Assembly (NCBI RefSeq): GCF_011683955.1
Contig: NZ_JAAQPI010000001.1
Coordinates: 992,001-1,056,000 of the forward strand
Direction of reading: 5' to 3'
Length of the DNA: 64,000 nt
From: Pseudomaricurvus alkylphenolicus
GTDB lineage: Bacteria; Pseudomonadota; Gammaproteobacteria; Pseudomonadales; Cellvibrionaceae
Both the position numbers and the translations under genes were made by a program. This document shows positions 7,771 through 44,094 of this stretch, piece by piece (position 1 is the first letter of the stretch; each line of letters starts with the position of its first letter). The notes under the pieces were generated by a model that saw only the letters and a list, made by a program, of their open reading frames with translations, was not told the origin of the DNA and ran no database searches.

Positions 7771-7810
7771 ACGCACCTTTTGGAATATGCGGATTGGTTT
7801 CAGACCGGCG

Positions 7811-11996: not shown

Positions 11997-12022
11997 TATT
12001 GAAGGAGTGAAAGTACTGTCTA

Positions 12023-12052: not shown

Positions 12053-12057
12053 CGTGC

Positions 12058-23811: not shown

Positions 23812-23905
23812 ATCAAAAATTCAGATTAGAAAGCAATTATGACCAAGGCCTTCCGGCTGTAAACGGGCTGTGCTATGCTCGAACCAACTTTCTTACACTT
23901 ATCCA

Positions 23906-24913
23906 ATGGACCCTGCCCCGTTGTCGACCCCCGCTAAACCCCTGTTCGAAGCCTGCTCTGTCCACCGCACCATGCAGATTCTGTCGGACCCCTGGTCCTT
24001 TCTGATTCTGCGGGAACTGTGGTTTGGTCTGCGACGCTTTGATGACTTCCAGACCACGCTGAATATTCCCCGTGCGACGCTGTCCAACCGGCTCAAATCT
24101 CTGTTGGCGGCGGGTTTGCTGAAACAAGAGCCCAGTCGGGAGGGAGGGCGTCGCAAGGAATATCGATTCACGGAGATGGGTGCGGATCTCTACCCCACCA
24201 TGTTGACCCTGTTGCGTTGGGGAGACACATGGACGAAAACCGATGAAGGGGCGCCACTGATACTGACCCATCGCAGTTGCCGGAAACGTTGTCACGCAGA
24301 GGTAATTACCTCCTGCTGTGGCACCAAGGTGAACCCTAAAGATGTGGAATATCAGGATGGACCGGGAGTGGGACTGGAGCCTCTGGCGGCCTGGGCCAAG
24401 ACCAATCGCTCCTCAAAACCCAATAACTTTACGGCACCGAGGGCTTGTTCGGTGGCAAGGTCGTTACAGGCAATTGGGGATCGTTGGTCATTCCTGTTAA
24501 TCCGCGAGCTGTTTTTCGGTCGGCACCGATACGATCTGATCCAGAAGCAAATCGGCATGGCTACCAATATCCTCAGCAATCGCATCAAGCTGCTGATCGA
24601 CCATGACATTATCGAAGCTTCCACTTATGGAAAGGGGACAACTTGGTTTGAGTACCACCTGACCAAATCAGGACTGGATCTGTATGCCAGTTTTCTAGCG
24701 ATGATTCAGTGGGGTGATCGCTGGCTGGCAGGTTCCAAAGGAGCGCCTCTGACGCTGATTCATAAAAAGTGCGGACAGGCATTTGAACCCAAAGTTGTCT
24801 GTAAGGCATGCAAACAGCCCATTGTTGCGCGGGACATGGGGTACAAACCCGGCCCCGGTTGGGATGTTGTCTACGGTGAAGACCTGCTACTGCAAAATAT
24901 GAAGCCGGTTTAA
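23906..24913 (+). CDS. Two-domain HxlR-family transcriptional regulator
   Basis: About 335 residues holding two complete HxlR winged-helix domains, roughly 10-100 and 175-265. Domain 1 runs from CSVHRTMQILSDPWSFLILR to MLTLLRWGDTW and domain 2 from CSVARSLQAIGDRWSFLLIR to MIQWGDRW. Each is followed by a Cys-containing tail (CCGTKV; CGQAFEPKVVCKACKQ) that could bind metal. Typical HxlR proteins are single-domain dimers of about 110-130 residues, so this is an internal duplication acting as a built-in dimer. The start is unsure (ATG 23906 or GTG 23870). Its 3' end overlaps the convergent paralogue at 24887 by 27 bp. Confidence 0.88.
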   Translation: MDPAPLSTPAKPLFEACSVHRTMQILSDPWSFLILRELWFGLRRFDDFQTTLNIPRATLSNRLKSLLAAGLLKQEPSREGGRRKEYRFTEMGADLYPTMLTLLRWGDTWTKTDEGAPLILTHRSCRKRCHAEVITSCCGTKVNPKDVEYQDGPGVGLEPLAAWAKTNRSSKPNNFTAPRACSVARSLQAIGDRWSFLLIRELFFGRHRYDLIQKQIGMATNILSNRIKLLIDHDIIEASTYGKGTTWFEYHLTKSGLDLYASFLAMIQWGDRWLAGSKGAPLTLIHKKCGQAFEPKVVCKACKQPIVARDMGYKPGPGWDVVYGEDLLLQNMKPV

Positions 24914-25903
24914 CAATAGATCTTCGCCATAGTTGACGCTCCAGCCCGGGCCAGGGGCGTAGCGAACCTCCTTTGCACTTAGGGGGAGCCCTTTGCTTTG
25001 GTCAACGACAACAGGTTCGAACAGCTGCCCACAGGTTTTATGCCGCAGCAGTATGGGAGAGCCGCCTTTCGCGGGTAGCCATTTATCTCCCCAGAGAATC
25101 ATCGCGAGAAGGCTTGGGTACAAGTCCAGCCCGGACTCAGTCAGGTAGTACTCATATCGACTGGTGCTTTTCCCGTACCGACTTTTTTCGATAATCTTGT
25201 GATCAACAAGTTGTTTGATTCTGTTGCTCAATACGCTGGTGGACATATTGAGCTGCCTCTGAATTGGGTCAAATCGGTGGCGACCAAAAAACAGCTCTCG
25301 AATGAGCAGAAATGACCAGCGATCACCCAGCACTCGCAAGGTTCGAGCGACAGAGCAGGCTCTTGGTGTCGTAAAATTCTCGGGCTTGGACGACCGATTA
25401 GTACTTCTGTGGTTGATCAATGGAGAAACCCCCGCCCCTGGCCCTTTTTCAAAGGCCACGTTGGTGGAGTTAACACTGGTCTTGCAGCTTGAGCAGATAA
25501 CATCAACGCGTAGACGATCACCGTTGCGTCTGTGAAACAGTTTGATCGGGGGGCCCTGCTCCTGACTCAACCAGGTATCCCCCCAGCTCAATAGAGTTAA
25601 CATGATCGGGTAAAGCTCCGCGCCCATTTCAGTAAAACGGTATTCTTTACGAAGTCCTCCCTGCCGGCCAGGAACCTGTTTTAGCAGTCCGGCATCCAAC
25701 AGTGATTTCAATCGGTTTGTCAGAGTTGCCTTCGGAATCTGCAGCACCGCCTGAAATTCACCAAATCGATGCAGGCCAAACCAAAGTTCCCTTAATACCA
25801 GGGATGTCCATGGATCTGAGAGAACCTGCAGTGTGCGATCAACCGAACAATTCTCAACCAACGGGGTAAAAGGGGACGGTGCAACCGGGTTATTGGCAGG
25901 CAT
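24887..25903 (-). CDS. Two-domain HxlR-family transcriptional regulator, paralogue
   Basis: 338 residues with the same two-domain layout as the convergent neighbour. CSVDRTLQVLSDPWTSLVLR opens domain 1 and CSVARTLRVLGDRWSFLLIR opens domain 2. Cys-rich tails follow each (CSSCKT; HKTCGQLFEP). The two proteins share most signature stretches, including the ending PGWxVxYGEDLLL, so they arose by gene duplication. It overlaps the small TPR-like gene upstream by 14 bp and sits in an operon behind an acyl-CoA ligase. A regulator for that operon or for nearby catabolic promoters is likely, with a CoA thioester or aromatic ligand possible. Confidence 0.88.
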   Translation of the reverse strand: MPANNPVAPSPFTPLVENCSVDRTLQVLSDPWTSLVLRELWFGLHRFGEFQAVLQIPKATLTNRLKSLLDAGLLKQVPGRQGGLRKEYRFTEMGAELYPIMLTLLSWGDTWLSQEQGPPIKLFHRRNGDRLRVDVICSSCKTSVNSTNVAFEKGPGAGVSPLINHRSTNRSSKPENFTTPRACSVARTLRVLGDRWSFLLIRELFFGRHRFDPIQRQLNMSTSVLSNRIKQLVDHKIIEKSRYGKSTSRYEYYLTESGLDLYPSLLAMILWGDKWLPAKGGSPILLRHKTCGQLFEPVVVDQSKGLPLSAKEVRYAPGPGWSVNYGEDLLLNRLHILQ

Positions 25904-30450: not shown

Positions 30451-31761
30451 TTACGAAGGAATCACGGAGGTTTTAATCGTCCTTACGGTGATTACCGAAA
30501 GCACCAACGGTAGCGAAAAAACGATAAACAGCAGCGTGTTGTTCCACTGCAACTCCAGCAGTGCGCCGGCGATCAAGGGCGATAGAATCGCGCCCACCCG
30601 GCCTACACCGATCGCCCATCCCATCCCTGTCGTTCTGATCTCGGTGGGGTAGAGAACCGGAACCAGCGCATATAAACCAATCATGGAGCCGAACAGGAAA
30701 AATCCGATTACGACGCCAAGCCCAAGCGCAATAATGGTATTGGAAGAAAACACTCCGAATAGCACCATAATCGCGGCGGTCAGCACCATATAAGTACCGA
30801 TCAGCTTATTGAGTTGCACCCGAGATGAGATATAGCCAAGCAGCAAACCACCGACCACGCCCCCCACATTGATTAATACCCCTGCGGTAATTCCGCCTTC
30901 TGGCGATAATCCTCCAGCCACCAACAACTTTGGTGTCCAGCTGAGTACGAAATAGAAACTGAACATCACCATAAAAAACGACGTCCAGGACATAAGCGTA
31001 GTGCGTTTAAGGGGCTGGCTGAACAGGTTGCTGATACTGGCTGCGGGTCTGGAATCACCAGAAGGTAATTCTGGAAACGTATCTATTGGGGCTCTACCGA
31101 GTTTTCCAAGTAGATCATTGATTTTGTCTTTTCCATTCTTAGTGCGCTTGGAAATAAGGAAGTCGAGAGATTCAGGAACTCCTGGTATAACCAGAGCGAT
31201 CATCGAAAAAGAGGCAATAGCACCAAACATAAACACGGATCGCCATCCGTATTCACTGATCAGGAAAGTGGCAATGATGCCACCGACAACGGCACCGATC
31301 GGGTAGCCGGCCTGCAAGCAGGAGATGGCCATGCTGCGCCATCTGTCAGATGAATATTCGGAGACAATAACCGTCAAGCTTGCCAACATGCCACCAATGC
31401 CGAGACCGGTGATAAGGCGCAGTATGGCCATCTGGTAGCTGTTTTGCGCCAAAGCGGAGAGAAACATGCCGACGCTGATAATCAGAAGGCACACGATAAT
31501 CAATGGTCGGCGGCCATACTTGTCCGCCAGGGGTGCCAGCACCAGAGAACCAATGGCCATGCCAACAAGACCGGCACTGAGCAGTATGCCCAAGTGGCTG
31601 TCCTGCAGGCCCCACTCCTTAGAGACAGAGGCGGCCGTAAACGCCATCACGAGAACGTCAAAACCATCCAGCATATTAATCATCAGGCATATAACAATGG
31701 CCCGAACCTGAAAAGGTGACATCGGCGATTGTTGGATTGACCGCTGTAAATCTACTTGCAT
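30451..31761 (-). CDS. MFS transporter, aromatic acid:H+ symporter type
   Basis: 436 residues with 12 predicted membrane segments. NMLDGFDVLVMAF in helix 1 is the DGxD motif of the AAHS family (PcaK, BenK). The loop 2-3 motif is LAPLADKYGRRPLI, and loop 8-9 has the second-half repeat LLGYISSRVQ. It should import an aromatic or related acid driven by protons. The ATG at 31761 has GGGAGT 9 nt upstream and is preferred to the frame start at 31836. It is divergent from a TonB receptor across a region with two paired motif 2 sites, so outer- and inner-membrane uptake are probably coregulated. Confidence 0.9.
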   Translation of the reverse strand: MQVDLQRSIQQSPMSPFQVRAIVICLMINMLDGFDVLVMAFTAASVSKEWGLQDSHLGILLSAGLVGMAIGSLVLAPLADKYGRRPLIIVCLLIISVGMFLSALAQNSYQMAILRLITGLGIGGMLASLTVIVSEYSSDRWRSMAISCLQAGYPIGAVVGGIIATFLISEYGWRSVFMFGAIASFSMIALVIPGVPESLDFLISKRTKNGKDKINDLLGKLGRAPIDTFPELPSGDSRPAASISNLFSQPLKRTTLMSWTSFFMVMFSFYFVLSWTPKLLVAGGLSPEGGITAGVLINVGGVVGGLLLGYISSRVQLNKLIGTYMVLTAAIMVLFGVFSSNTIIALGLGVVIGFFLFGSMIGLYALVPVLYPTEIRTTGMGWAIGVGRVGAILSPLIAGALLELQWNNTLLFIVFSLPLVLSVITVRTIKTSVIPS

Positions 31762-31798
31762 CAACACGACTCCCAAGTTGAGGCTATTATTATTAAAT

Positions 31799-31845
31799 CT
31801 TGCAGAGATGAACTTAATATAATCCAATAAGTTCACCTATGCAAG
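31799..31845. promoter_or_regulatory. Motif 2 inverted pair, site 1
   Basis: CTTGCAGAGATGAACT (31799-31814) is the reverse copy and AGTTCACCTATGCAAG (31830-31845) the forward copy of AGTTCA-N4-TGcAAG, 31 bp apart start to start. The site lies 38-84 bp upstream of the MFS transporter start, where a repressor or activator would act. Confidence 0.6.
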
Positions 31846-32043: not shown

Positions 32044-34383
32044 ATGATAAATAAAGAACCCTTTTTTAATAAAGAGAAGCTTCTGCACCTATTGATGATG
32101 ACCGGGGCCTTGGCGATGGCTTCCCCTCAGGTAATGTCACAATCGGCAGGCTTTCAAATTGAGGAGGTGGTCGTTACCGCACGAAAACGGGAGGAGAGTC
32201 TGCAGGATACGCCCATTTCAGTGGCCGCCTTTACCGCCAGTGACATGAAAACCCGGCAAATCGACTCTTCGGATCAGCTGACTCAGATTACGCCAAATCT
32301 CTCTTTTTCTTCCCAGGCACCCGGCGGAGGCAGTAACGCCTCTTCGCAAATCTTTATTCGGGGCATTGGCCAAACCGAATATTTGCCTACCAATGATCCG
32401 GCGGTGGGTCTTTATATTGATGATGTTTACTACGCAAGGTCGGTGGGGGCAACATTGGACTTTGTCGATCTGGATCGCATCGAGGTACTGAGGGGGCCTC
32501 AGGGAACACTGTTTGGTCGCAATACCATTGGTGGCGCCATCAATATTACCACGCGCAGACCATCGCAGGAGTTTGGTGGCAGCGCATCGGTGAAAGTGGG
32601 TACAGACTCTCGCCGCGACGCACAAATCAGTGTCGACGTACCCATCAGTGACACCTTGCTGACCAATATCGCTATGGGTTCCCGCAAACGCGACGGCTAT
32701 GTGGACCGTGTGTTAACGGGCGAGCAGTTGGGGGACGATGAGAGCCTGGGCGGGCGCATCGCCGTTGAATGGTCAGCGTCCGGCGATATTGAGGTGTTCT
32801 GGAGTCTCGATTATACCAAGGAGGCGGAGAGCGGCAGTCCCATTGTTTTTAACGGGCTCAACACCAGTGGCCTGTTCGCGGCGCTGGAGATCGGTCGGGT
32901 TTGTCCAACCATCGATTCGTCCCTGAGCGAACGCTGTACCAGCGGGGATTGGAGTGCCGGCCCCTATGCCAACTACGGGACCTTTCCTGCGTTATCCACG
33001 TTCGAGAGTGTGGGCTCAAATGTCACTGTCAGCTGGGACCTGGGGGCGTTTTCCGTGAAGTCCATTACCGCCTTTCGGGAAATGGAATGGACGGGCTCGC
33101 GCGATGCAGACAATACACCTCTGAAGATACTGCACTCCGTCAACGATGATACTCAGGATCAATTCAGTCAGGAATTGCAATTTTCCGGGACCGCATTTGA
33201 GGATCAAATGACCTGGTTGTTTGGTTTGTATTACTTTGAAGAAACCGCAACCGATGACTACTTTGTTGCCACAGCGGTGGGGGATTTTAATACCGGTGGT
33301 GATGTGGAAAACGACTCCCAGGCGGTATTCGGGCAAATCACCTATGACCTGACCGATCAACTTAGCCTGACGGCCGGTCTAAGATGGACCGAGGAAACCA
33401 AGGCGTTCAAACCGCTGCAATTTACTATCTCTGACGCTTACCTTTTCCCGATCACTGCGGACGAGGGCGACGGCGCCGGTGGTTATGTCCATCCTTTCAA
33501 TGACCGGGTTTACCCAACGTTGGGAGGTGGGGGTACAGTTGCCATTGTTCCCGCAGGTACCCAGTTCTACCCCGAAGTCTGGCAGGATCAAACCTTCTCT
33601 GACACCACGCCAATGCTTAACATCGCCTATCGCTGGACCCCTGAAGTTATGACTTATCTGACTTTTTCGGAGGGTTTTAAAAGCGGAGGTTACAGTGCCC
33701 GTGTGATTAAGCCCGGCAATGCCAGCCGCCCCTTTGGTCCTGAGAAAGCAGAAACCATCGAACTGGGATTCAAGGCAACTTTATTTGATGAGTCTCTGCG
33801 CCTCAACGGCGCCTTTTTCTCCACCGACTACACCGACTTGCAGTTTGTGATCCGGGAAGATTTTGCACCGCTGACCTTCAACGCGGGTGAGGCCAAGATC
33901 GAAGGTATGGAGCTGGAATGGACTTGGGTGCCCACTCCCGAAATTCAAATCGTCGGTGGTTTGGGTTATATCGATGCCCAGTATGAGCAGCTTAGCGATG
34001 ATCTTATTGCCAGTGGCGTTTTGCTGGACAACGATCTGCCGCACACGCCCAAGCTTTCTGCCAGCCTCGGGGTGGCTTACAGCTTGAATCTCGGCGATTG
34101 GGGCGTCTTCACACCGAGAGTGGATTGGGCTTATCGTGATGATGTCTACTTCGATGCCCTCAACTCTGAAGATACCGCGCAGGAAGGCTACAGTATCGTT
34201 AATGCCGCTGTGATCTGGAACTCTCCGGATGAGAACATCAACGTTTCACTGGCTATATCCAATTTGACCGATGAGCTTTATCGAGTGTCTGGAAACTCAG
34301 CCATAGCGTCTGCCTCGTCCTATTCCGAATCGACCTACGCCAGAGGACGCGAGTGGAGCTTGTCAATGGAATACCTGTTCTGA
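32044..34383 (+). CDS. TonB-dependent outer-membrane receptor
   Basis: 779 residues. A long signal region ends near VMSQSA, followed by FQIEEVVVTARKREESLQD as the TonB box. The plug contains IFIRGIGQTEY and DRIEVLRGPQGTLFGRNTIGG, and the last residue is Phe (MEYLF). GGAG lies 11 nt before the ATG. It is divergent from the MFS transporter, with motif 2 site 2 in its promoter, and is followed 75 bp later by the CoA-ligase that opens the molybdenum-hydroxylase cluster. It probably imports the substrate of that pathway. Confidence 0.94.
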   Translation: MINKEPFFNKEKLLHLLMMTGALAMASPQVMSQSAGFQIEEVVVTARKREESLQDTPISVAAFTASDMKTRQIDSSDQLTQITPNLSFSSQAPGGGSNASSQIFIRGIGQTEYLPTNDPAVGLYIDDVYYARSVGATLDFVDLDRIEVLRGPQGTLFGRNTIGGAINITTRRPSQEFGGSASVKVGTDSRRDAQISVDVPISDTLLTNIAMGSRKRDGYVDRVLTGEQLGDDESLGGRIAVEWSASGDIEVFWSLDYTKEAESGSPIVFNGLNTSGLFAALEIGRVCPTIDSSLSERCTSGDWSAGPYANYGTFPALSTFESVGSNVTVSWDLGAFSVKSITAFREMEWTGSRDADNTPLKILHSVNDDTQDQFSQELQFSGTAFEDQMTWLFGLYYFEETATDDYFVATAVGDFNTGGDVENDSQAVFGQITYDLTDQLSLTAGLRWTEETKAFKPLQFTISDAYLFPITADEGDGAGGYVHPFNDRVYPTLGGGGTVAIVPAGTQFYPEVWQDQTFSDTTPMLNIAYRWTPEVMTYLTFSEGFKSGGYSARVIKPGNASRPFGPEKAETIELGFKATLFDESLRLNGAFFSTDYTDLQFVIREDFAPLTFNAGEAKIEGMELEWTWVPTPEIQIVGGLGYIDAQYEQLSDDLIASGVLLDNDLPHTPKLSASLGVAYSLNLGDWGVFTPRVDWAYRDDVYFDALNSEDTAQEGYSIVNAAVIWNSPDENINVSLAISNLTDELYRVSGNSAIASASSYSESTYARGREWSLSMEYLF

Positions 34384-34458
34384 CACATAAACGCCAGGGA
34401 CGGCGCATGACTGAAAATTTGTATTTGTGAGCGATCAGCTCCTTAGGGCATGGTAACG

Positions 34459-36297
34459 ATGACAACAAAACTCAAAAGCAGTGTATTTGCACCGGTAGAG
34501 GTGCGTAGAACGGATAACAATGATGGTTCTTTTACCCTGACGCAATCACTTCAACTGGGCACCTATGAAAAAAGCCTGGGCGCCTATCTGCGCCGGTGGG
34601 CGACAGACAAACCACATCATATCTTTCTGGGGGAACGAAGCGATGCTGAGCGATGGCGAACGCTCAACTACAGCCAAGTCCTGACAAAGGTGGAATCCAT
34701 AGCGCAGTACTACTTGAATATCGGTCTGTCTCAGCACAAACCCGTCATGATTCTTTCAGAAAATTCAATCGACAATGCGCTCTTGTCTTTGGCAGCCATG
34801 TATGTGGGTATTCCGGTCGCGCCGATTTCATCGGCCTATTCCCTGATGTCCAAGGACTTTCTGAAACTAAAAAGCGTTTATGCCCAGGTTCGACCGGGAC
34901 TGGTTTACGCAGGCGACCTTGAAAGATATCAAAGAGCATTGAGGGCGCTGGATTTGTCCGGGGTTACCGTGGTTTCCTCCAGCACGGGAACCGCCGACAT
35001 TGAGGCGGTATCAATCGATGCCATGCAGGATACGCCCCCGGGTTCTCTGGTTCAGAGTAGCTACGAGCGTGTGGGCCACGATAGCGTGGCAAAAATCATG
35101 TTCACCTCTGGATCCACCGGTGACCCAAAGGGCGTGATCACCACACAGAACATGATGCTGTCCAATCAGCAAGCCATTGGGCAGGTCTGGCCGTTTCTAA
35201 CAGAAGAGGCACCGGTACTGCTGGATTGGTTACCCTGGAGCCATACCTTCGGCGGCAGCCTCAATTTTAATATGGCGTTGTTCAATGGCGGCAGTTTTTA
35301 CATTGACGAAGGAAAGCCTCTGCCTTCCGAACTGGAATACACGACACGAAACATCAAGGATATTTCACCCACAATCTATATGGGAGTGCCCAAGGGCTTT
35401 GGCGAACTGATACCACGTTTAGAGGCAGACGACGAACTCAAGGCGGCGTTTTGCCACCGTCTGAAGCTGGTATTTTCAGCTGGAGCCGCTATGCCCGAGG
35501 CGATGTGGAAACGATTTAAATCGACACTGCAAGACACAGGAGACCGGGAAATCCCGGTGATTGGTGGCTGGGGATCGACGGAAACCTCACCGATGGCGTC
35601 CATCGTACATTACCCCATTGATACGCCGCGGATGATTGGCGTTCCCTTGCCGGGTGTCGAACTCAAATTTATTCCCAGGGGCGACCGATTTGAAATCCGT
35701 GTAAGGGGCCCCAACGTCACACCCGGTTACCTTAACCATTCCGAGAAAACCGACGCCAGTCTCGACAGCGAACAATTCTGGATCATGGGTGACGCCTGTC
35801 GGCTATACGACGATAACGCACTGGATAAGGGAATCGTTTTTGACGGACGCCTGGCGGAGGAATTCAAACTCACTTCGGGCACCTGGGTGGCCACCGGGGC
35901 TTTGCGAGTGAATGTACTATCCGTACTGTCTCCACTGGCACAGGATGTGGTGGTGACGGGCCATGACCGGGATTATATCGGTGTGTTGATCTTTCTTAAT
36001 CAGGAAGCCTGCCAGGCCGCTATCACATCAGAACATCACCTGGATCTCTCAATGCTGGCAGACAACGAGGCATTGCAAGACATCATCCAAGAGCGGCTTC
36101 AGCAGTACAACCTACAGCACCCCGCGAGCTCTACCCGTATTCGGCGCGCTGCGCTATTGCCGGATATTCCCTCCTTTGAACAGGGTGAGATTACCGATAA
36201 GGGCTATCTGAACCAGCGCTCGATACTGCAAAACCGTAATACCACGGTAGAGGCACTGTACTCCGGACAGGGGTCACACATCATCAAAACAGACTGA
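34459..36297 (+). CDS. Feruloyl-CoA-synthetase-like AMP-dependent acid:CoA ligase
   Basis: 612 residues, the length of feruloyl-CoA synthetases, and longer than ordinary acyl-CoA ligases. The P-loop is FTSGSTGDPKGV (215-226). LPWSHTFGGSLNFN and GGWGSTETSPM are typical of the Fcs group. The usual GDxG hinge is MGDACRLYDD, followed by FDGRLAEEFKLTSGTWV. It activates an aromatic or unsaturated acid to its CoA ester. The ATG at 34459 has AGGG 10 nt upstream; the ATG at 34450 is too close to it. The enzyme is the likely entry step for the CoxG/crotonase/molybdenum hydroxylase operon that starts 97 bp downstream. Confidence 0.88.
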   Translation: MTTKLKSSVFAPVEVRRTDNNDGSFTLTQSLQLGTYEKSLGAYLRRWATDKPHHIFLGERSDAERWRTLNYSQVLTKVESIAQYYLNIGLSQHKPVMILSENSIDNALLSLAAMYVGIPVAPISSAYSLMSKDFLKLKSVYAQVRPGLVYAGDLERYQRALRALDLSGVTVVSSSTGTADIEAVSIDAMQDTPPGSLVQSSYERVGHDSVAKIMFTSGSTGDPKGVITTQNMMLSNQQAIGQVWPFLTEEAPVLLDWLPWSHTFGGSLNFNMALFNGGSFYIDEGKPLPSELEYTTRNIKDISPTIYMGVPKGFGELIPRLEADDELKAAFCHRLKLVFSAGAAMPEAMWKRFKSTLQDTGDREIPVIGGWGSTETSPMASIVHYPIDTPRMIGVPLPGVELKFIPRGDRFEIRVRGPNVTPGYLNHSEKTDASLDSEQFWIMGDACRLYDDNALDKGIVFDGRLAEEFKLTSGTWVATGALRVNVLSVLSPLAQDVVVTGHDRDYIGVLIFLNQEACQAAITSEHHLDLSMLADNEALQDIIQERLQQYNLQHPASSTRIRRAALLPDIPSFEQGEITDKGYLNQRSILQNRNTTVEALYSGQGSHIIKTD

Positions 36298-36393: not shown

Positions 36394-36942
36394 ATGGAAA
36401 TCACTGGTGATACGCTGTTGCCATTCTCCCGAGAGAAAGTCTGGGAGCATTTGAACGACCCCGCGATTCTGGGCCAGGCGGTGCCGGACTGTCAGTCCCT
36501 GGAAGCCAAATCCCCGACCGAACTGGAAGCCACGGTAGCGGCCAAGGTGGGGCCCATCAAAGCCGTATTCAAGGGCGATGCGGTCATTTCGGAAAGCGTC
36601 GCACCAGAGAGTTACACTCTCACTGCCAGTGGCAAGGGAGGTGTGGCCGGGTTTGCCAGCGCGGTTATCAAGGTCAAGCTCACAGAGCAGGGCGACGCCA
36701 CTCGCTTGGATTATCGGGTCGAGGCCAATCTGGGCGGCAAACTCGCACAACTGGGCACACGCCTGGTGGAATCAACCGCTCGCAAATGGGCTGAACGATT
36801 CTTCCATCAGTTTACCGAGGTTATCAGTAACGGCGGTGTTCTGCCCCAGACGGAGGCGGCACCATCAGGCCCGGGCCTCTGGGAGCGCCTGTTGATCTTG
36901 ATCAAACGCCTGCTGGGTATCCAAACCAAGGTAGCTGATTGA
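36394..36942 (+). CDS. CoxG-like SRPBCC protein
   Basis: 182 residues from the ATG at 36394, which has GAGGG 9 nt upstream. MEITGDTLLPFSREKVWEHL and NDPAILGQAVPDCQSLE are the start of the CoxG/CO-dehydrogenase subunit G family, an SRPBCC fold. A basic-hydrophobic C-terminal helix (LWERLLILIKRLLGI) may anchor it to the membrane, as for CoxG, which recruits the matured molybdenum enzyme. A longer in-frame start at 36331 lies inside the operator region. It opens an operon that includes all three subunits of a CoxMSL-type enzyme, so a maturation or targeting role for that enzyme fits. Confidence 0.88.
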   Translation: MEITGDTLLPFSREKVWEHLNDPAILGQAVPDCQSLEAKSPTELEATVAAKVGPIKAVFKGDAVISESVAPESYTLTASGKGGVAGFASAVIKVKLTEQGDATRLDYRVEANLGGKLAQLGTRLVESTARKWAERFFHQFTEVISNGGVLPQTEAAPSGPGLWERLLILIKRLLGIQTKVAD

Positions 36943-36943
36943 T

Positions 36944-37723
36944 ATGAATGAGATTCTGATTTCCGTAGCTGAGGGTATTGCCCGGGTAACGCTCAATCGA
37001 CCGCAACAAAAAAACTGTGTCACGCTCTCTATGTGGCGGCAAATCAAATCCGTGATGGAAGAGCTGGGAAGCGACGACACGGTCAGAGTTGTTACATTGG
37101 CCGGTGCCGGCGGTAATTTCTGTTCCGGCGCGGATATATCCGAATTTGGTGAGGTTCGCAGTACCGAGCAACAGGTACACCACTATGAGCAGGCGGTGGA
37201 CGCCGCCAGTGACGCCATTATGGAGTGCCCCAAACCGGTAATCGCCGCTGTGGAGGGCTATTGTGTCGGTGGCGGCCTGGGGCTGGCCATGGCGTGCGAC
37301 TTTCGGGTCGCCGCTCCCGGCGCCTGCCTTTTTATTCCTGCCGCGCGCATGTCCATTGTTTATGGGTTGCGCGAGACGCAGAATCTTCTGGCCCTGGTGG
37401 GACTGACCTGGGCCAAGCGTATTCTCTACACCGGCGAGCGTCTCAATGCCAACCTTGCTTATCAAGTCGGGTTAATAGACGAACTCACAGAAGAAAACGG
37501 ATTCGAGTCTGCGCTACAGGTGCTCGCGGTGCGTTTGACAGAGTCTGCGCCTCTCACGATCGCCGGTAGCAAAGCCATCCTCAATAGCCTCGAAATTACC
37601 GCCAATGAGCAGGTGGTCGAGGCCGCCGAAGCACTGATTAAAGCCGCCGGCGAAAGCCAGGACTACCATGAAGGCCGCCAGGCTTTTGCCGAAAAGCGCA
37701 CCCCTCGTTTTATTGGCCGCTAG
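36944..37723 (+). CDS. Enoyl-CoA hydratase/isomerase (crotonase) family protein lacking both hydratase Glu
   Basis: 259 residues with the crotonase fold. The CoA/oxyanion features are NFCSGADISEF (59-69) and GYCVGGGLGLAMACDFRVA (105-123). The two glutamates of true hydratases (E119/E139 type) are absent: the sequence has GGGLGLAMACD and IPAARMSIVYG instead. So it is probably not a simple enoyl-CoA hydratase. It may be an isomerase, a dehalogenase/thioesterase-like or C-C-bond enzyme of the superfamily. It follows the CoxG-like gene by 1 bp and precedes the FAD subunit of a molybdenum hydroxylase, so a CoA-bound substrate passes through this operon. Confidence 0.85.
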   Translation: MNEILISVAEGIARVTLNRPQQKNCVTLSMWRQIKSVMEELGSDDTVRVVTLAGAGGNFCSGADISEFGEVRSTEQQVHHYEQAVDAASDAIMECPKPVIAAVEGYCVGGGLGLAMACDFRVAAPGACLFIPAARMSIVYGLRETQNLLALVGLTWAKRILYTGERLNANLAYQVGLIDELTEENGFESALQVLAVRLTESAPLTIAGSKAILNSLEITANEQVVEAAEALIKAAGESQDYHEGRQAFAEKRTPRFIGR

Positions 37724-37739
37724 CGACAGAGAAGTAATT

Positions 37740-38642
37740 ATGAAACCCGCCGCTTTCGACTACGAGAGACCCCAAACCCTGGACGATGCGCTGAAGCTAT
37801 TGGCCAGCAGTGATAACGCTAAAATTATCGCCGGTGGCCAAAGTCTTATGCCGATGCTGAACTTTCGCCTGCTGGCACCGGAGCTGCTGGTGGATATCAG
37901 CCGCATAGACGAGCTGCGTGGTATCCGCGAAACCAAGGGGCGCGGCCTGAGTGTCGGCGCCTTAACCCGACATCACGAGATGGAAACCTCCAAGCTGGTG
38001 GAGGAGCGTTTTCCGGTCATTCACGAAGCCATGCAGTATGTGGCCCACCTCGCCATTCGTAACCGTGGCACCATCGGGGGCAGTTTGTCTCACGCAGACC
38101 CGGCGGCAGAGCTGCCGATGATGGCGGTGTTACTGGATGCTCACTTACACGTCGCCGGCCCCAATGGTTTACGCCAGGTTGCCGCCAGAGATTTTTTTCT
38201 CGGGGCACTAACAACAGATCTTGAAGAAAACGAAATTCTGGTCCAGGTGGAGTTTCCCGGTTTACCCAAACGCAGCGCTTACGCCTTTGATGAATTTGCC
38301 CAGCGCAGTGGCGACTTCGCCCTGTGTTCCGTCGCCGTAATCCTGAGCTGGAGTGGTAACTTCCTTACCGGAGGAAAAAAAATTGGGGATGTCCGCATAG
38401 CGCTGATGGGGGTGGATGAAACACCGGTACGCATTGAAGTCGCCGAGCAACTCCTCAGCGGTGCCAAACATATCGACGACCCCTTGTTGGAGCAGGTGGC
38501 AAGCGTTATTCGAGATACGATCCAGCCCAACGGCGACCTGCATGCCTCGGCCGACTATCGCCGTCATCTGGCTTATACCATGAGTCAGCAAACACTAAAG
38601 ACCGCCTGGCAACGATTACAGGGGCAGACCGATGAGGACTGA
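37740..38642 (+). CDS. Molybdenum hydroxylase FAD-binding subunit (CoxM/XdhB-like)
   Basis: 300 residues, usual for the medium subunit. AFDYERPQTLDDALKLL opens it; IAGGQSLMPMLNFRL (about 35-49) and GTIGGSLSHADPAAELP bind FAD, as in CoxM, QorM and 4-hydroxybenzoyl-CoA reductase beta. It shuttles electrons from the Fe-S subunit to an acceptor. The ATG at 37740 has AGAAG upstream. Genes follow in the order medium, small, an inserted hydrolase, large. Confidence 0.93.
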   Translation: MKPAAFDYERPQTLDDALKLLASSDNAKIIAGGQSLMPMLNFRLLAPELLVDISRIDELRGIRETKGRGLSVGALTRHHEMETSKLVEERFPVIHEAMQYVAHLAIRNRGTIGGSLSHADPAAELPMMAVLLDAHLHVAGPNGLRQVAARDFFLGALTTDLEENEILVQVEFPGLPKRSAYAFDEFAQRSGDFALCSVAVILSWSGNFLTGGKKIGDVRIALMGVDETPVRIEVAEQLLSGAKHIDDPLLEQVASVIRDTIQPNGDLHASADYRRHLAYTMSQQTLKTAWQRLQGQTDED

Positions 38643-38645
38643 GCA

Positions 38646-39125
38646 ATGAGCAACCTTAAAACCATCTCTCTCACCGTGAATGGCGAGAAAGTGGTGCGCC
38701 AAGTTGAACCGCGACTGCTGTTGGCAGACTTTCTGCGCAACGAGTTGAATCTGACCGGTACTCATATCGGCTGCGAACACGGTATTTGTGGTGCCTGCAC
38801 CTTGCTGGTCAACGGTGACAGCGTGCGTTCGTGCCTCACCCTGGCGATACAGGTGGACGGCGCCGAGGTGACCACAGTAGAGGCCCATGGCAAACCGGAT
38901 TCAATGAGCGTAGTGCAGGAAAAATTTCAGCAATGCCACGGTCTTCAATGCGGTTTTTGCACACCCGGCATGTTGGCAACCGCCGAAGACCTGTTAAACA
39001 AGTACCCCTTGGTAACGGAAGAAGACATTCGCGAAGGTTTGTCCGGCAATATCTGCCGTTGCACCGGTTATCAAAACATAGTGGACGCCGTGGCAGCGGC
39101 AAGAGACGAGGTACGCTCTCAATGA
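38646..39125 (+). CDS. Molybdenum hydroxylase [2Fe-2S] small subunit (CoxS-like)
   Basis: 159 residues with two [2Fe-2S] clusters. The plant-type site is C43/C48/C51/C63 (CEHGICGACTLLVNG). The second site is C102/C105 and C137/C139 (LQCGFCTPGM and GNICRCTGYQN). It begins 3 bp after the FAD subunit. Its stop overlaps the next gene in an ATGA junction at 39122-39125. Confidence 0.95.
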   Translation: MSNLKTISLTVNGEKVVRQVEPRLLLADFLRNELNLTGTHIGCEHGICGACTLLVNGDSVRSCLTLAIQVDGAEVTTVEAHGKPDSMSVVQEKFQQCHGLQCGFCTPGMLATAEDLLNKYPLVTEEDIREGLSGNICRCTGYQNIVDAVAAARDEVRSQ

Positions 39126-39883
39126 AAATGCACATCTTATCCGGCGGCAAACTGCGCATGAATCGCGGCGTTTATTATCCGGATGCGCAAAAAGGCGAAA
39201 AGATTGATTTGCCCGTCAACTGCGTTTTGTTTCGACACGCTCAGGGCAATGTGCTCTTTGATACCGGTTGTCACCCCAGCGTGGTGGATGACGCCGAGGG
39301 CCGCTGGGGCAAAATGGCCCGCGCCATGACACCGATTATGGATACCAGTGATCATCTGATGGCGGAATTGGATCGTTTGCAGTTGGCGCCCGACGATATT
39401 GATGTGGTGATTAACTCCCACTACCACTCGGATCACTGCGGCTGTAACGAGTATTTTAAAAAAGCCACATTTTTTGTCCACGCAGCGGAGTTCGCCAAGG
39501 TCAGCGAGGCAGACTCTGTTCAGCAGGGCTATATTCCGGCCGATTGGCAGCACCCCATGCCGTTAAACACGATCGACAGTCAGACCGATATCTTCGGGGA
39601 TGACCGCATCCTGCTCCTGCCTTTGCCGGGACATACGCCGGGCATGACCGGCGCCATTGCCAATCTGGACAAAAGTGGCTCATTCCTGTTGGCCTCTGAC
39701 GCTGTCAGCGTGCGGGAAAATCTGGATCGGGAAATCATTCCCAAAACCACTTGGAACCCTGATGTACTGATGGATTCGCTTTTGGAAATCAAACGTGTGG
39801 AGCGCTCTGGCGCCACCGTGATTTGTGGGCATGACCCGCAGCAGTGGCTGGCGCTGAAAAAAGGCGTCGAGTTTTACGACTGA
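39122..39883 (+). CDS. Metallo-beta-lactamase-fold hydrolase (lactonase-like) inside the molybdenum hydroxylase operon
   Basis: 253 residues. The dinuclear metal site is H100-Y-H102-S-D104-H105 in INSHYHSDHCG, with a further His in LPGHTPGM, Asp in LLASDAV, and a C-terminal His in ICGHDPQQW. The N-terminal CVLFRHAQGNVLFDTGCHP is typical of the N-acyl-homoserine-lactonase-like branch. It starts within the small subunit stop codon (ATGA) and ends 16 bp before the large subunit, so it is tightly coupled. It probably opens a lactone or ester in this pathway, for example a hydroxylation product; quorum quenching is less likely in this setting. Confidence 0.88.
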   Translation: MKMHILSGGKLRMNRGVYYPDAQKGEKIDLPVNCVLFRHAQGNVLFDTGCHPSVVDDAEGRWGKMARAMTPIMDTSDHLMAELDRLQLAPDDIDVVINSHYHSDHCGCNEYFKKATFFVHAAEFAKVSEADSVQQGYIPADWQHPMPLNTIDSQTDIFGDDRILLLPLPGHTPGMTGAIANLDKSGSFLLASDAVSVRENLDREIIPKTTWNPDVLMDSLLEIKRVERSGATVICGHDPQQWLALKKGVEFYD

Positions 39884-39899
39884 ATTGGGGGGCGAAAGA

Positions 39900-42272
39900 A
39901 TGCCTGAATCGAATTCTTCCCAATACGTGGGTTCCAGAGTCAAGCGGCGAGAAGATCCCCGCTTGCTCACCGGCCGCGGCCGTTATGTGGACGACATCAA
40001 GGTCGCCGGCATGCTGCACATCGCCTTTCGGCGCAGCGACTATTCCCACGCTCGTATCCTCAGCATCGATACCAGCGCGGCGAAAGCGAGTCCCGGTGTG
40101 GTAGAGGTGTTTACCGCCAAAGACATCGAAGGCGAATTTAATCCGGTACTGGCCCAATCGCGCATGCGCGACTATCAACCCACCATTATGCAGATTCTGG
40201 CCGCTGACAAGGTTCGGTTTGTGGGCGAAGCGGTGGTGGCGGTGGTGGCGGAGAGCCGCTATCTGGCCGAAGACGCCGCCGCACTGGTGGAGATCGAGTA
40301 CGACGAATTGCCGTTGGTGACCGACCCTGAGCAAGCTCTGATAAACAGCTCGGCAAAGCTGCACGAGCAGATGGATTCCAACGTGCTTCTACAGCGGGAG
40401 TTTAATCGCGGTGATGTCGACGAAGCGTTTTACGGTGCTAGTGTTTATATCAAAGAACGCTTTCGCTTCACCCGCAAAACGTCGCTGGCGATGGAAAATC
40501 GCACCTATCTGGCGGAGTACAACAGCGCGGAGCAGGCGTTAACGCTACATACCACCAGCCAGGTGCCCGGCATTATTCGAGACATCCTGGTTGATGCGCT
40601 CGACATTCCCGGCAGTCACCTGCGAGTGGTTGCACCGGACGTTGGCGGTGGATTTGGCGGCAAAACCTCTCTCTATCCGGAAGAGGTGTTGGCGCCGATT
40701 CTGGCGAAAAAACTCGAACGCCCGGTTAAGTGGACGGGGGACCGTATTGAAGACCTGATTTCCACCAGCCAGGGTTTCGACGAAATCATTGATGCCGAGA
40801 TTGCTGTCGACCGTGAGGGTCGGATACTGGGGTTGCGGGCCGACGTCATCGGTGATGTCGGCGCCTATTCCATTTACCCCTGGACGGCCGGCATCGAGCC
40901 GGTACAGGTAGTGAGCTTTTTACCCGGTCCCTACAAGATTGAAAATTACCATGGCCGGGTGCGGGGTGTGGCAACCTCCAAACCACCCACGGGTCCTTAT
41001 CGTGGTGTGGGCCGACCGGTGTCTACCTTTGTGATGGAGCGCCTGGTGGATATGGCGGCGCGGGAATTGCAGATGGACCCCCGCGAGATAAGACAACGCA
41101 ACCTGGTGCAGCCTCATGAGTTTCCCTATAAAGCGGCCTCCGGCATTGTCTGGGACCAATCCGGTTTCACTCAGGGCTTGAACGGTGCCTGTGAGGCGAT
41201 TGGCTACGATGGGCTGCGACGAACGCAGGCGCAGGCCAGAGCCCAGGGGCGCATGGTAGGTATAGGTATCGCCAGTTTTGCGGAGTTAACGGGCATTGGC
41301 TCGCGGCTGTCCGCCTCCCCCGGCATGCCTATCAATACCGGTACAGAAACCGCCAGCATCAGCGTTGACTCAACCGGTGGCATTACAGCCCGCTTTGGTG
41401 TGACCTCCTACGGCCAGGGCCTGGAAACTTCGCTGGCACAGGTAGTCGCGGATGAACTTAACGTTGAAATCAGCCAGATACGTATTCTGCAGGGCGACAG
41501 TGCCGCGGTCAGTCACAGCACGGGCTCCTACGCCAGCCGGGGTGCTGTGTTGGGAGCCGGCGCGGCCATACTGGCCTGTCGGGCATTGGACCAGAAGTTG
41601 AAGGCGGTAGCGGCCATTTTGCTCAGCTCCAGTGCCGAGGATATCTTGATCCGCGACGGGGTTTTCTCAGGACCGGGTTCGGACGAGAAACTCACGTTCA
41701 AGGACCTGGCGAAGGCCTACTACTCCCAAATGGGTCTTATCCCCGCACCTATCCGCAACGAGATTGGCGAGCTGTCCGCCACCCAAATGTACGACCCGGA
41801 ATGGGGGACCACCTCGTCGGCGACTCACATAGCGTTGGTGGAAATCGACCCGGACACCTTCAAGGTCAAGGTGGATAAATACGTGGTCGCCGAGGACTGC
41901 GGGCAGATGCTGAACCCCATGATTGTGGACGGACAGGTACACGGCGGTGTTGCCCAGGGCATTGGTGCGGCGCTGTACGAAGAAATGATCTACGACGAGC
42001 AGGGCCAGAACCTGACCGCCAGTCTGGTGGACTATGTGGTGCCATCGGCCACGGAAATTCCGCGAATGGACGTTGTCCATCTGGATCTGGAAAAGCCCAA
42101 GACGCTGGGTGGTGTTCGCGGCATGGGTGAGGGCGGTACTATCGGAGCCCCCGCAGCCATTGCCAATGCGGTCGCCGATGCACTGGCGCCCCTGGGCCAA
42201 CAGGTCACTACTCTGCCGGTAACCCCACAGCGAATCTTTGAACTGGTACAGGCGGCAAAAGCCAACCAATAA
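39900..42272 (+). CDS. Molybdenum hydroxylase large (molybdopterin-binding) subunit, CoxL form II-like
   Basis: 790 residues of the xanthine oxidase family. VKRREDPRLLTGRGRYVDDIK is the usual N-terminal start. The active-site loop reads PPTGPYRGVGRP, which is form II-like (AYRGAGR) and not the AYRCSFR loop of true aerobic CO dehydrogenase. The catalytic Glu is in RGMGEGGTIGAP near the C-terminus. It should hydroxylate a C-H bond using water. Given the CoA ligase and crotonase in the cluster, the substrate may be an aromatic or alicyclic acid or its CoA ester. GGGGGGCGAAAG precedes the ATG at 39900; the TTG at 39885 is not needed. Confidence 0.93.
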   Translation: MPESNSSQYVGSRVKRREDPRLLTGRGRYVDDIKVAGMLHIAFRRSDYSHARILSIDTSAAKASPGVVEVFTAKDIEGEFNPVLAQSRMRDYQPTIMQILAADKVRFVGEAVVAVVAESRYLAEDAAALVEIEYDELPLVTDPEQALINSSAKLHEQMDSNVLLQREFNRGDVDEAFYGASVYIKERFRFTRKTSLAMENRTYLAEYNSAEQALTLHTTSQVPGIIRDILVDALDIPGSHLRVVAPDVGGGFGGKTSLYPEEVLAPILAKKLERPVKWTGDRIEDLISTSQGFDEIIDAEIAVDREGRILGLRADVIGDVGAYSIYPWTAGIEPVQVVSFLPGPYKIENYHGRVRGVATSKPPTGPYRGVGRPVSTFVMERLVDMAARELQMDPREIRQRNLVQPHEFPYKAASGIVWDQSGFTQGLNGACEAIGYDGLRRTQAQARAQGRMVGIGIASFAELTGIGSRLSASPGMPINTGTETASISVDSTGGITARFGVTSYGQGLETSLAQVVADELNVEISQIRILQGDSAAVSHSTGSYASRGAVLGAGAAILACRALDQKLKAVAAILLSSSAEDILIRDGVFSGPGSDEKLTFKDLAKAYYSQMGLIPAPIRNEIGELSATQMYDPEWGTTSSATHIALVEIDPDTFKVKVDKYVVAEDCGQMLNPMIVDGQVHGGVAQGIGAALYEEMIYDEQGQNLTASLVDYVVPSATEIPRMDVVHLDLEKPKTLGGVRGMGEGGTIGAPAAIANAVADALAPLGQQVTTLPVTPQRIFELVQAAKANQ

Positions 42273-42312
42273 AATCCCTAAAACATTTGTACAGATACTT
42301 TTGGAGACAACT

Positions 42313-43071
42313 ATGCAATTAGGTCTGGAAGGTAAGGTGGCTCTGGTCACCGGTGGTGCCCGCGATGTGGGCGGAGAAATTTCCCGTACGCTGGCGGCCG
42401 AGGGCGCCACGGTAGCCATCAACTATCGAGGCAGCGCGGACGAAGCCAATGCGCTGGTGGATGAAATCACCAACAAAGGCGGCAAAGCGTTTGCTTATCA
42501 GGCAGACGTGACTGACTACGAGCAGGTCAAGGCCATGGTGGACCAGGTGGTTGCCGATCACGGTGCGCTGAACATTCTGGTCAATAACGCCGGTTTGGTG
42601 ATCCAAAAACGCTTTACCGAAAGTGATCCGGATCAATGGAAGAAACAGACGGACGTCTGCCATTACGGCATCATCAACGCCTGCCACGCCGCCTCCCAGG
42701 TGATGCAGGCGCAGAAAGACGGTCGCATTGTGAATATCGTCGGTGACTCCGCCAGAGTCGGCGAGGCTTACCTGTCCGTTAAGGCTGCCACCGGCGGCTC
42801 TGCCATGGCTTTTACCAAGTCGCTGGCCAAAGAGCTGGGGCGTTTTAACGTCCGCGCCAATGTGGTGGCCTTTGGCATGTTGGAAACCTCTCACAGCGAT
42901 AAGGAGTGGCTGGAGCAAAACCGCGCCAAGATCGAGCGCCAGTATCCACTGCGTCGCATGGGCTTTCCGCAGGATGTGGCACCAACCGTGGTGTTTCTTA
43001 CCTCTGATGCCACCAGCTGGGTGACCGGTCAGGTGGTCAGCGTCAGTGGCGGTTATAGTATGGTGGGTTAA
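42313..43071 (+). CDS. Short-chain dehydrogenase/reductase
   Basis: 252 residues of the classical SDR family. The cofactor motif is VTGGARDVGGEI (TGxxxxxG form), followed by NNAG (ILVNNAGLV). The catalytic pair is YLSVK; the region before it (IVGDSARVGEAY) is shorter than usual, so the Ser is less clear. It should oxidise or reduce an alcohol/ketone with NAD(P). TTTTGGAG precedes the ATG. It is the last gene of the cluster; degenerate DNA follows. Confidence 0.9.
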   Translation: MQLGLEGKVALVTGGARDVGGEISRTLAAEGATVAINYRGSADEANALVDEITNKGGKAFAYQADVTDYEQVKAMVDQVVADHGALNILVNNAGLVIQKRFTESDPDQWKKQTDVCHYGIINACHAASQVMQAQKDGRIVNIVGDSARVGEAYLSVKAATGGSAMAFTKSLAKELGRFNVRANVVAFGMLETSHSDKEWLEQNRAKIERQYPLRRMGFPQDVAPTVVFLTSDATSWVTGQVVSVSGGYSMVG

Positions 43072-43269
43072 GCCCACTGCTGCGATATGACGGAGGTTAT
43101 CTTAAGCAATCGCAATGGCTATGCCGTCAGCGAAGCGGGGTTGGGCCTTAATCACAACCCCGAGTATCGCTGCTTTATCGCGGCGGCGAGCCAAGCTACA
43201 GTGAGCGCATTCAGCAACAGTTCCCGGCGACATTCACGACCATCAAAACCATTAAAGTATCCTTATTCC

Positions 43270-43459
43270 TGCCGAATTTTGCGACGCGGTGTCTAAGTTT
43301 TATGTGGAGGACATTTGGGAATCTGCGCTGTAGAGTTGCAAAAAACGCGTTTCGATTATGGGTTATCAGGATGCCTCCAACTTTACCCGCACCTGTGTGT
43401 CCAGGTATGGCGAGACGCCAAAGCAGCTTCGCAAAAATACTGTGGATTCCGATCAGTGA
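43270..43459 (+). pseudogene. AraC-family regulator relic (C-terminal HTH)
   Basis: In one frame the sequence after 43358 reads MGYQDASNFTRTC and then VSRYGETPKQLRKN to a stop at 43457. That is the second helix-turn-helix of AraC-family regulators (GYSDxSNFTRAFKRxxGxSPxxYR in intact members). Upstream the same frame has a TAG at 43331 and then VSKFYVEDIWESAL, so the gene is interrupted. The rest of the regulator is missing or beyond recognition. Confidence 0.6.
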
Positions 43460-43629
43460 GGCATCTCACTGCTGCATCCTTCCCCGCAATGCGCATCTAG
43501 GATTCCATAAATTACGGATCCGAATATGGGCTTTCTGCACAGCTAATAAGCACCGACCATTTGTCACCGATCTGTGCCACAACATCCCGAATGGGACATT
43601 CGTCATTGTTTTCAAATACCCGCTTTTCC

Positions 43630-43854
43630 GGATTCTACGTTGACGGGGATCATGTTATCTTCCATTCCCATGCTACTTTGAATAAAGAAGACAGAGGAAA
43701 TGACCAAAAAGGCATGAACATTGTCGATACTTGGCGCCTTGAAAATGGAAGGATTGTCGAGCATTGGGACTCTATTCAAGCCCTTGATGGCTTTATGCGA
43801 TTCTACTCACTGCTCAGTGGTGGCAATATCCGCAATTCAAATGGGGTATTTTAA
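43630..43854 (+). pseudogene. SnoaL-like (NTF2-fold) protein, C-terminal remnant
   Basis: The frame through VDGDHVIFHSHATLN, MNIVDTWRLENGRIVEHWDS and a terminal GNIRNSNGVF matches the second half of SnoaL-like polyketide-cyclase/NTF2-fold proteins. About 50 N-terminal residues are missing in frame; HNIPNGT in another frame near 43580 may be part of them, implying a frameshift. A short functional product from TTG 43561 cannot be excluded. Confidence 0.6.
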
Positions 43855-44091
43855 CTGTTCGCCAGTTCCATCCAAAATGCTAACCTGGCTCTCATCCTCA
43901 GAAAAACCGCACTTGGCAATCTCGTCGTTCAAATAAAGTTTGGAGTGATACCCTTGTTTCGATTCCGGCAGGGATTGCCTGAGAAAGGTCTCGGCGTTGA
44001 GCAGGTAAGAAGTGTTGTTAATTGGACGTGCAGATGGAGCCCTGAAGCCCTTTGATAAATCGGTAACTGATGCCGAACAGCGCTTTCGCGT
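43837..44091 (-). other. Open frame without start codon, possible gene relic
   Basis: On the - strand an open frame of about 84 codons runs between two TGA stops and includes LNAETFLRQSLPESKQGYHS and LNDEIAKCGFSEDESQ. Its composition looks coding-like, but there is no ATG, GTG or usable TTG near its beginning. It overlaps the end of the SnoaL remnant. I do not recognise the family. Confidence 0.25.
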
Positions 44092-44094
44092 TAG

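Follow-up and report, generated by a model that had tools for sequence, protein, structure and literature searches.

What does a lactonase-like hydrolase do when its gene sits between the small and large subunit genes of a molybdenum hydroxylase? We asked this of a 64,000-nucleotide stretch of Pseudomaricurvus alkylphenolicus (NCBI RefSeq assembly GCF_011683955.1, contig NZ_JAAQPI010000001.1, positions 992,001 to 1,056,000 of the forward strand; hereafter the window, with positions counted from its first letter), in which seven genes on the plus strand form such an operon. The reading we favour, at roughly even odds (about 50%), is that these genes are a catabolic cassette for a CoA-activated ring carboxylic acid, in which hydroxylation would make a lactone and the embedded enzyme would open it. 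The genes are as follows:

36394..36942, plus strand: CoxG-like protein, probable membrane anchor or partner of the molybdenum hydroxylase (Pfam COXG, 107 bits)
36944..37723, plus strand: crotonase-fold protein without the hydratase catalytic glutamates (Pfam ECH_1)
37740..38642, plus strand: flavin adenine dinucleotide (FAD) subunit of the molybdenum hydroxylase (Pfam FAD_binding_5, CO_deh_flav_C)
38646..39125, plus strand: 2x[2Fe-2S] (Fe-S) subunit of the molybdenum hydroxylase (Pfam Fer2, Fer2_2; both cysteine motifs present)
39122..39883, plus strand: embedded lactonase-fold hydrolase of the metallo-beta-lactamase superfamily, 253 amino acids (Pfam Lactamase_B, metal ligands, AlphaFold2 model)
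39900..42272, plus strand: molybdopterin (large) subunit, xanthine-oxidase family (Pfam Ald_Xan_dh_C, MoCoBD_1, MoCoBD_2)
42313..43071, plus strand: short-chain dehydrogenase/reductase (SDR)-fold protein without the classical Tyr/Lys pair (Pfam adh_short_C2)

This gene order had been given in a first-pass annotation made by a model from the letters and their open reading frames (ORFs); reading and translation bore out both the order and the coordinates, and the gene names agree at family level with Pfam and NCBIfam searches. The hydrolase gene lies where that annotation placed it, overlapping the Fe-S gene by an ATGA (-4 bp) and followed after 16 bp by the molybdopterin gene; the FAD and Fe-S genes are 3 bp apart, and 40 bp separate the molybdopterin and SDR genes. 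The 8.88-Mb genome (70 contigs) holds a single match to the hydrolase, and a MoCoBD_2 domain search of it returned 21 matches, in which some genes are represented by two pieces. About 1 kb past the operon (43072-44094) is without a convincing gene and possibly contains a gene remnant.

The first-pass annotation had allowed that the order might be an accident of one genome, and a search of other genomes ruled this out. We examined 32 loci: the window, 8 plasmid loci picked from hydrolase matches, 14 genome-scan loci (all at 52-75% hydrolase identity, with a 15th relative at 32% left out) and 9 of the 11 genomes found in two surveys (G043 and G635 were left out, with matches of 48%, like G253). 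The hydrolase gene lies directly between the Fe-S and molybdopterin genes at 28 of these loci, the window included and two having truncated hydroxylase genes: all 8 plasmid loci (one truncated), 11 of the 14 scan loci and 8 of the 9 survey genomes (one truncated). At one of the remaining four the contig breaks off immediately before the hydrolase gene, and the other three are without a hydroxylase. Of the 28 pairs of Fe-S and hydrolase genes, 24 overlap by 4 bp. Carriers of the insertion belong to three classes, the alpha-, beta- and gammaproteobacteria, and include plant symbionts, so the idea of a single-genome accident fails; its plasmid carriers are Aminobacter, Bradyrhizobium elkanii, Agrobacterium, Rhizobium and Sinorhizobium. 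In genome surveys at E 1e-60 the cassette is uncommon and its distribution patchy: it turned up in 3 of 397 other genomes at phylum level and in 10 of 297 from the family to which one match belongs, but in none of 57 relatives drawn from the genus, family and order of the window. This patchiness, rather than a tree, is the ground on which we consider horizontal spread probable. Counts given below for intact loci refer to 26 (L012, L057 and L058 excluded); neighbouring genes were counted above orthologue identity floors (for example ligase B 44%, iron-containing alcohol dehydrogenase (Fe-ADH) 50% and succinate-semialdehyde dehydrogenase (SSADH) 60%), and these counts are lower bounds, because flanks are mostly about 10 kb and several loci reach a contig or stretch edge.

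Is the embedded protein an enzyme, and of what kind? It is 253 amino acids long at all 32 loci, and its AlphaFold2 model (mean pLDDT 89.6) is closest to the N-acyl homoserine lactone (AHL) lactonase AhlX (TM 0.88-0.91), then to AiiA and GcL, with 4-pyridoxolactonase slightly behind. Like these enzymes and AiiB and AttM, it has the ligands of a dinuclear metal site, complete (HxHxDH plus a further His, Asp and His) and invariant in 29 of 29 cassette members. It differs from the AHL lactonases three residues past the bridging Asp, at a position that we equate with Tyr194 of AiiA and take to be catalytic: AttM and AiiB have Tyr there, whereas the 29 cassette members have Ser (7), Pro (13), Ala (8) or Cys (1), and one of these four residues is also found in three relatives without a hydroxylase. 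The hydrolase also scores below the cut-off of every NCBIfam AHL-lactonase equivalog that it matched (AttM 140.5 against 390, AhlS 123.8 against 475, AiiA 115.8 against 375, AidB 42.4 against 360, YtnP 30.2 against 425). Because the Tyr is lost and the scores lie so far below these cut-offs, we read the protein as a lactonase-type enzyme for a substrate other than AHLs. Activity on quorum signals alone, which the first-pass annotation had named as an outcome that would overturn its proposal, is thus unlikely, and quorum-signal cleavage is probably not the main job of the hydrolase.

The divergence of the hydrolase follows that of the hydroxylase. For each of the three hydroxylase subunits, the pairwise distances correlate with those of the hydrolase at r 0.85-0.88 (23 loci), compared with a benchmark of 0.92-0.93 for the two small subunits against the large one; the hydrolase values are 0.70 with the ligase (13 loci), 0.67 with the crotonase (20), 0.62 with the SDR (22) and 0.51 with the Fe-ADH (13). 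This set leaves out the truncated, cut or near-duplicate loci L012, L017, L019, L051, L057 and L058. In permutation tests of all these correlations 0 of 999 permutations were as high, so all the genes share a history, with the hydrolase going with the hydroxylase.

The hydroxylase has FAD, 2x[2Fe-2S] and molybdopterin subunits with the Pfam domains of the xanthine-oxidase family and, in its large subunit, the motifs GGGFGGK, GEGG and PYRGVGRP, of which GEGG is the one that we take to carry the active-site Glu of the family. Form I CO dehydrogenase was considered and rejected: AYxCSFR, which we assume to be the active-site loop of CoxL, is absent from the large subunit, and PYRGVGRP is present instead. 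Of 29 large subunits, 27 contain GPYRGVGRP, and the two without it are truncated. The nearest solved large subunit is that of quinoline 2-oxidoreductase (1t3q, E 1.3e-171), an enzyme of the same three-subunit build, and the best NCBIfam match is glyceraldehyde dehydrogenase alpha, below its cut-off. Unlike quinoline 2-oxidoreductase and other hydroxylases of the family, the large subunit belongs to a distinct clade, and so does the hydrolase: each stands apart among the plasmid records sampled, with no identity between 40.6% and 58.9% for the large subunit (an evenly spaced 60 of 240 records) and none between 32.3% and 47.4% for the hydrolase (an evenly spaced 60 of 347). A CoxG gene accompanies the cassette at 24 of the 26 intact loci, and in six (L015, L016, L017, L018, L019 and L021, at about 7000-8590), which come from Burkholderia, Cupriavidus and Pseudorhodoferax, CoxG and crotonase are fused in one ORF of 513-527 amino acids. 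CoxG homologues are described as tethering dehydrogenases to membranes (PMC11962113).

The two remaining proteins of the operon have lost the catalytic residues of their folds, which was unexpected. The hydratase Glu pair, at positions that we equate with rat E144 and E164, is replaced in 24 of 24 crotonase orthologues (His in 22 and Gly in 2 at the first position, Ala in 23 and Ser in 1 at the second; Gly and Ala in the window), whereas E. coli PaaF and CaiD keep both glutamates in the same alignment. At the Tyr/Lys positions of FabG, counted from a conserved motif, none of 27 SDR-fold proteins is canonical: the window has K/G and its relatives A/R, G/R, V/R or T/R. A YLSVK in the window protein lies four residues early, and the alignment to the FabG structures 3osu and 3sj7 has no gap there. 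The SDR gene is present at all 26 intact cassettes, and mean identity among the co-divergence loci is 58% for the crotonase and 65% for the SDR; because both are well conserved despite the lost residues, they are probably active in some other way. Plain beta-oxidation, with a hydratase and then a dehydrogenase, was rejected, since the catalytic residues are missing from both. A methylmalonyl-CoA decarboxylase function for the crotonase was likewise rejected, and survives only in a narrower reading given below: when six of the 24 crotonases were compared with five E. coli references, each was closer to PaaF or MenB than to ScpB (25-29% identity), and the Tyr that we take to be the key residue of ScpB is one column off the conserved Tyr of these crotonases.

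Where the pathway might end is indicated by genes beside the cassette in relatives. An Fe-ADH and a thioesterase each occur at 17 of the 26 intact loci, always together and never one alone, and an SSADH (at least 60% identity to the L018 enzyme, which passes the curated NCBIfam SSADH cut-offs) occurs at 12 of 26 clusters, the window cluster not among them. The Fe-ADHs are 53-57% identical to BlcB (60% for one fragment) and the SSADHs 62-67% identical to BlcA of an annotated blc operon; the blc operon converts gamma-butyrolactone to succinate. In B. elkanii all three genes are missing from the 24.8 kb, which instead encodes a match to 4-hydroxybutyryl-CoA dehydratase/vinylacetyl-CoA isomerase (6vjr, E 6.6e-239; 1u8v, E 2.7e-171). 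Two unrelated solutions for one metabolite suggest 4-hydroxybutyryl-CoA, or its aldehyde, as the output of the cassette, and a C4 unit at the level of 4-hydroxybutyrate or succinate semialdehyde is the probable end product. The window genome has an Fe-ADH and thioesterase pair on another contig (59% and 47%) and two SSADH homologues (62-63%) elsewhere.

Activation of the acid and its entry into the cell would fall to genes upstream of the operon:

34450..36297, plus strand: acyl-CoA ligase, feruloyl-CoA-synthetase-like, probable activating enzyme (Pfam AMP-binding; NCBIfam PRK12582, 685 bits against a cut-off of 777)
32044..34383, plus strand: TonB-dependent receptor, probable uptake, judged from its position 66 bp before the ligase gene (Pfam)
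30451..31836, minus strand: aromatic-acid:H+ symport-type major facilitator superfamily (MFS) transporter, possible uptake (TIGR00895, 391 bits against a cut-off of 418.55)
24887..25903, minus strand: tandem-HxlR transcription regulator, candidate regulator of the locus (two HxlR stretches by Pfam)

The ligase gene ends 96 bp before the CoxG gene. A CoA ligase of one of two types is present at 23 of the 26 intact cassettes: the feruloyl-CoA-synthetase-like type at 4, with homologues of the window ligase (40-43%) at three other cassettes (L018, L019 and L061), and a different class I ligase at 21, which has no close homologue in the window genome (30-35% identity). The cinnamic or ferulic acid that the first-pass annotation had in mind is therefore not specially indicated as the substrate, and a pathway for these acids is weakened by the rarity of the feruloyl-type ligase. 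A branched-chain-amino-acid-type ABC transporter is frequent in the relatives, its substrate-binding protein occurring at 18 of 26 loci (64% or more identical to that of L018); the nearest solved relatives of this protein (3i09 and 3n0w) carry generic names that give no hint of a substrate. A protein 30% identical to the window MFS transporter adjoins the L016 cassette. The window HxlR regulator is 55% identical to the regulator beside the L014 cassette, a protein matched at 22 of the 26 intact loci, the window included. In the window the regulator gene is one of two convergent tandem-HxlR genes (23870-24913, plus strand, and 24887-25903, minus strand) whose 3' ends overlap, a few genes upstream of the operon.

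What, then, might the cassette do? Starting from features read in the sequences (the conserved cassette, the identity of subunits and folds, a complete metal site, the lost catalytic residues, co-divergence and the downstream enzymes), we infer a substrate class, a lactone intermediate and an order of steps. The acyl-CoA ligase would activate a ring acid, and, with CoxG tethering it to the membrane, the three-subunit molybdenum hydroxylase would add a water-derived oxygen to the ring carbon beside a heteroatom; the product would be a lactone or tautomerise to one, oxygen as the ring heteroatom being the most economical reading. The embedded lactonase-fold enzyme, produced in step with the hydroxylase, would open this lactone, and the crotonase-fold and SDR-fold proteins may then rearrange or cleave the opened acyl-CoA by non-standard chemistry. 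A C4 unit would remain at the level of 4-hydroxybutyryl-CoA, 4-hydroxybutyrate or succinate semialdehyde, to be taken up by the thioesterase, BlcB-like dehydrogenase and SSADH in many relatives and by 4-hydroxybutyryl-CoA dehydratase in one. The first-pass annotation had proposed such a route from a CoA-activated acid through hydroxylation to lactone opening, which fits the genes and the ligase at 23 of 26 loci; simple hydration and oxidation become doubtful with the crotonase and SDR residues missing.

A narrower version, quite unlikely as a whole, would see the genes as a unit for making and opening a lactone on an O-heterocyclic acyl-CoA whose oxidised carbon is beta to the thioester. Candidate substrates would be CoA esters of the 3-furoyl or 4,5-dihydrofuran-3-carboxyl type, and opening would yield a malonyl-type thioester. 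The crotonase superfamily includes methylmalonyl-CoA decarboxylase, and the crotonase-fold protein could decarboxylate this thioester to succinate-semialdehyde-CoA or 4-hydroxybutyryl-CoA, a C4 product for the thioesterase/BlcB/BlcA set or for 4-hydroxybutyryl-CoA dehydratase; the SDR-fold protein would be non-redox. This version covers most of the genes, and beyond the enzyme classes it is speculation.

Several observations weigh against a catabolic cassette of this kind. No ligase was found on the 18-kb contig of L014, the closest relative of the window, or in the stretch of L024 examined; L020 and L024 are also without crotonase, CoxG, Fe-ADH and thioesterase in the stretch examined, and L061 is without crotonase. 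The window itself is without the C4 module, 4-hydroxybutyryl-CoA dehydratase was found at one locus, L014 has a different kind of aldehyde dehydrogenase (31% identical to the L018 SSADH and below every cut-off), and the thioesterase is so named in plasmid records, with no NCBIfam model matching it at E 1e-30. Our Mantel-type correlations are inflated by shared ancestry. Hydrolase orthologues of 52-58% identity occur in L022, L025 and L026, on contigs of 6.5-7.8 kb where no hydroxylase is seen, so the hydrolase can occur without a hydroxylase. Its neighbours there are a PEP-hydrolase-like gene; CaiB-, ligase- and DUF3237-like genes; and an SDR gene (names given by eye, except for the ligase and the SDR). 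Finally, L012 (Rhizobium etli CFN 42 p42d, 12001-12762) and L058 keep a full-length hydrolase gene beside truncated FAD, Fe-S and molybdopterin genes; perhaps the hydrolase was retained for a different purpose, or perhaps the hydroxylase has decayed recently. Plasmid p42d belongs to a symbiont of Phaseolus.

The rival that survives best, although we judge it unlikely, separates the two activities: the hydroxylase would be an aldehyde or lactol dehydrogenase or an N-heteroaromatic hydroxylase, and the hydrolase would act in a later or side reaction, such as salvage of gamma-butyrolactone arising spontaneously from 4-hydroxybutyryl-CoA, which is known to lactonise. The two best matches of the large subunit, quinoline 2-oxidoreductase and (below its cut-off) glyceraldehyde dehydrogenase alpha, are consistent with this, as is the blcABC (attKLM) operon of Agrobacterium, in which a lactonase of the same superfamily, BlcC/AttM, accompanies the same two dehydrogenases, the homologues of BlcA and BlcB described above. 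The hydrolase, however, is no BlcC orthologue, being about 28% identical to AttM and without its tyrosine, and its divergence follows the hydroxylase (0.85-0.88) far more than the Fe-ADH (0.51). The cassette also differs from blcABC in its added molybdenum hydroxylase, ligase, crotonase and SDR, and in the window the dehydrogenase genes are unlinked to it.

Decidedly improbable is a 2-furoyl-CoA pathway, in which the hydroxylase would form 5-hydroxy-2-furoyl-CoA, the embedded enzyme would open its enol lactone to 2-oxoglutaryl-CoA and the thioesterase would release 2-oxoglutarate, with the alcohol and aldehyde dehydrogenases as upstream oxidases of furfuryl alcohol and furfural. The enzyme classes are the same, since the hmfABCDE genes of Cupriavidus basilensis HMF14 and Pseudomonas are described as encoding a CoA ligase and then a three-subunit molybdenum hydroxylase acting on an acyl-CoA, with a lactone that needs hydrolysis (PMC6678421, PMC12064950). 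For the lactone hydrolysis, PMC6678421 reports that hmfABCDE has no assigned gene, and a putative ring-opening hydrolase, 'hyd', is listed for the Pseudomonas hmf cluster (PMC12064950, Table 2). Compared by description rather than by HmfA sequence, these systems have no lactonase between the subunits mentioned in the available text, whereas the cassette adds SDR-fold and crotonase-fold proteins and the C4 module. Moreover, by cut-off the L018 aldehyde dehydrogenase is a true SSADH, the Fe-ADH is BlcB-like and not a furfural enzyme, and the rival has no place for the 4-hydroxybutyryl-CoA dehydratase of B. elkanii and leaves the conserved SDR-fold protein unexplained. The C4 end module and the SDR are thus unfit for conversion of 2-furoate to 2-oxoglutarate. 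We also sought an hmf reference in other hydroxylase loci of two Cupriavidus genomes, Pseudorhodoferax and four plasmids; none was identifiable as hmf among the 10 of 21 other large-subunit matches screened by tblastn and the four plasmid loci read.

It is very unlikely that the hydrolase serves the hydroxylase as a structural or maturation subunit, with any catalysis incidental: its gene lies between the subunit genes with a tight overlap and co-diverges with them, but its metal ligands are all invariant and it is kept at loci with a truncated hydroxylase or none seen. Least credible is a quorum-quenching lactonase that landed in a catabolic operon by chance and acts on AHLs, since, for all that the nearest solved folds and the automatic annotations are AHL lactonases, its best equivalog score is 140.5 against 390, the Tyr is lost in 29 of 29 members, and it has a fixed gene position and co-diverges with the hydroxylase.

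A lactone-making and lactone-opening cassette for a CoA-activated ring acid would apparently be a previously undescribed way of degrading such an acid; a literature search at the level of titles and listings, thiophene and furoate catabolism included, found no paper describing such a cluster. Gene neighbourhoods that pair a hydroxylase with a hydrolase are not in themselves new. On a Methylobacterium plasmid an alpha/beta hydrolase gene directly precedes a molybdenum hydroxylase gene, and an actinobacterial contig (L028, 6229-12530, from an Actinomycetes metagenome-assembled genome; outside all counts) has a lactonase-like gene (32%) with a molybdenum hydroxylase, an SDR and a 3-hydroxyacyl-CoA dehydrogenase (the last named by eye), where, read by eye, the hydrolase retains the Tyr and the SDR retains YxxxK.

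If our reading is true, a recurrent lactone-opening partner for molybdenum hydroxylases has been identified, for a step to which one report on furan catabolism assigns no gene and another only a putative one. The crotonase and SDR are a further caution, as their annotated activities are contradicted by their own active sites. The link to 4-hydroxybutyrate turns the missing substrate into a searchable question, and many proteins of rhizobia, Agrobacterium and Aminobacter now assigned to the 'N-acyl homoserine lactonase family' would be catabolic enzymes and not quorum quenchers.

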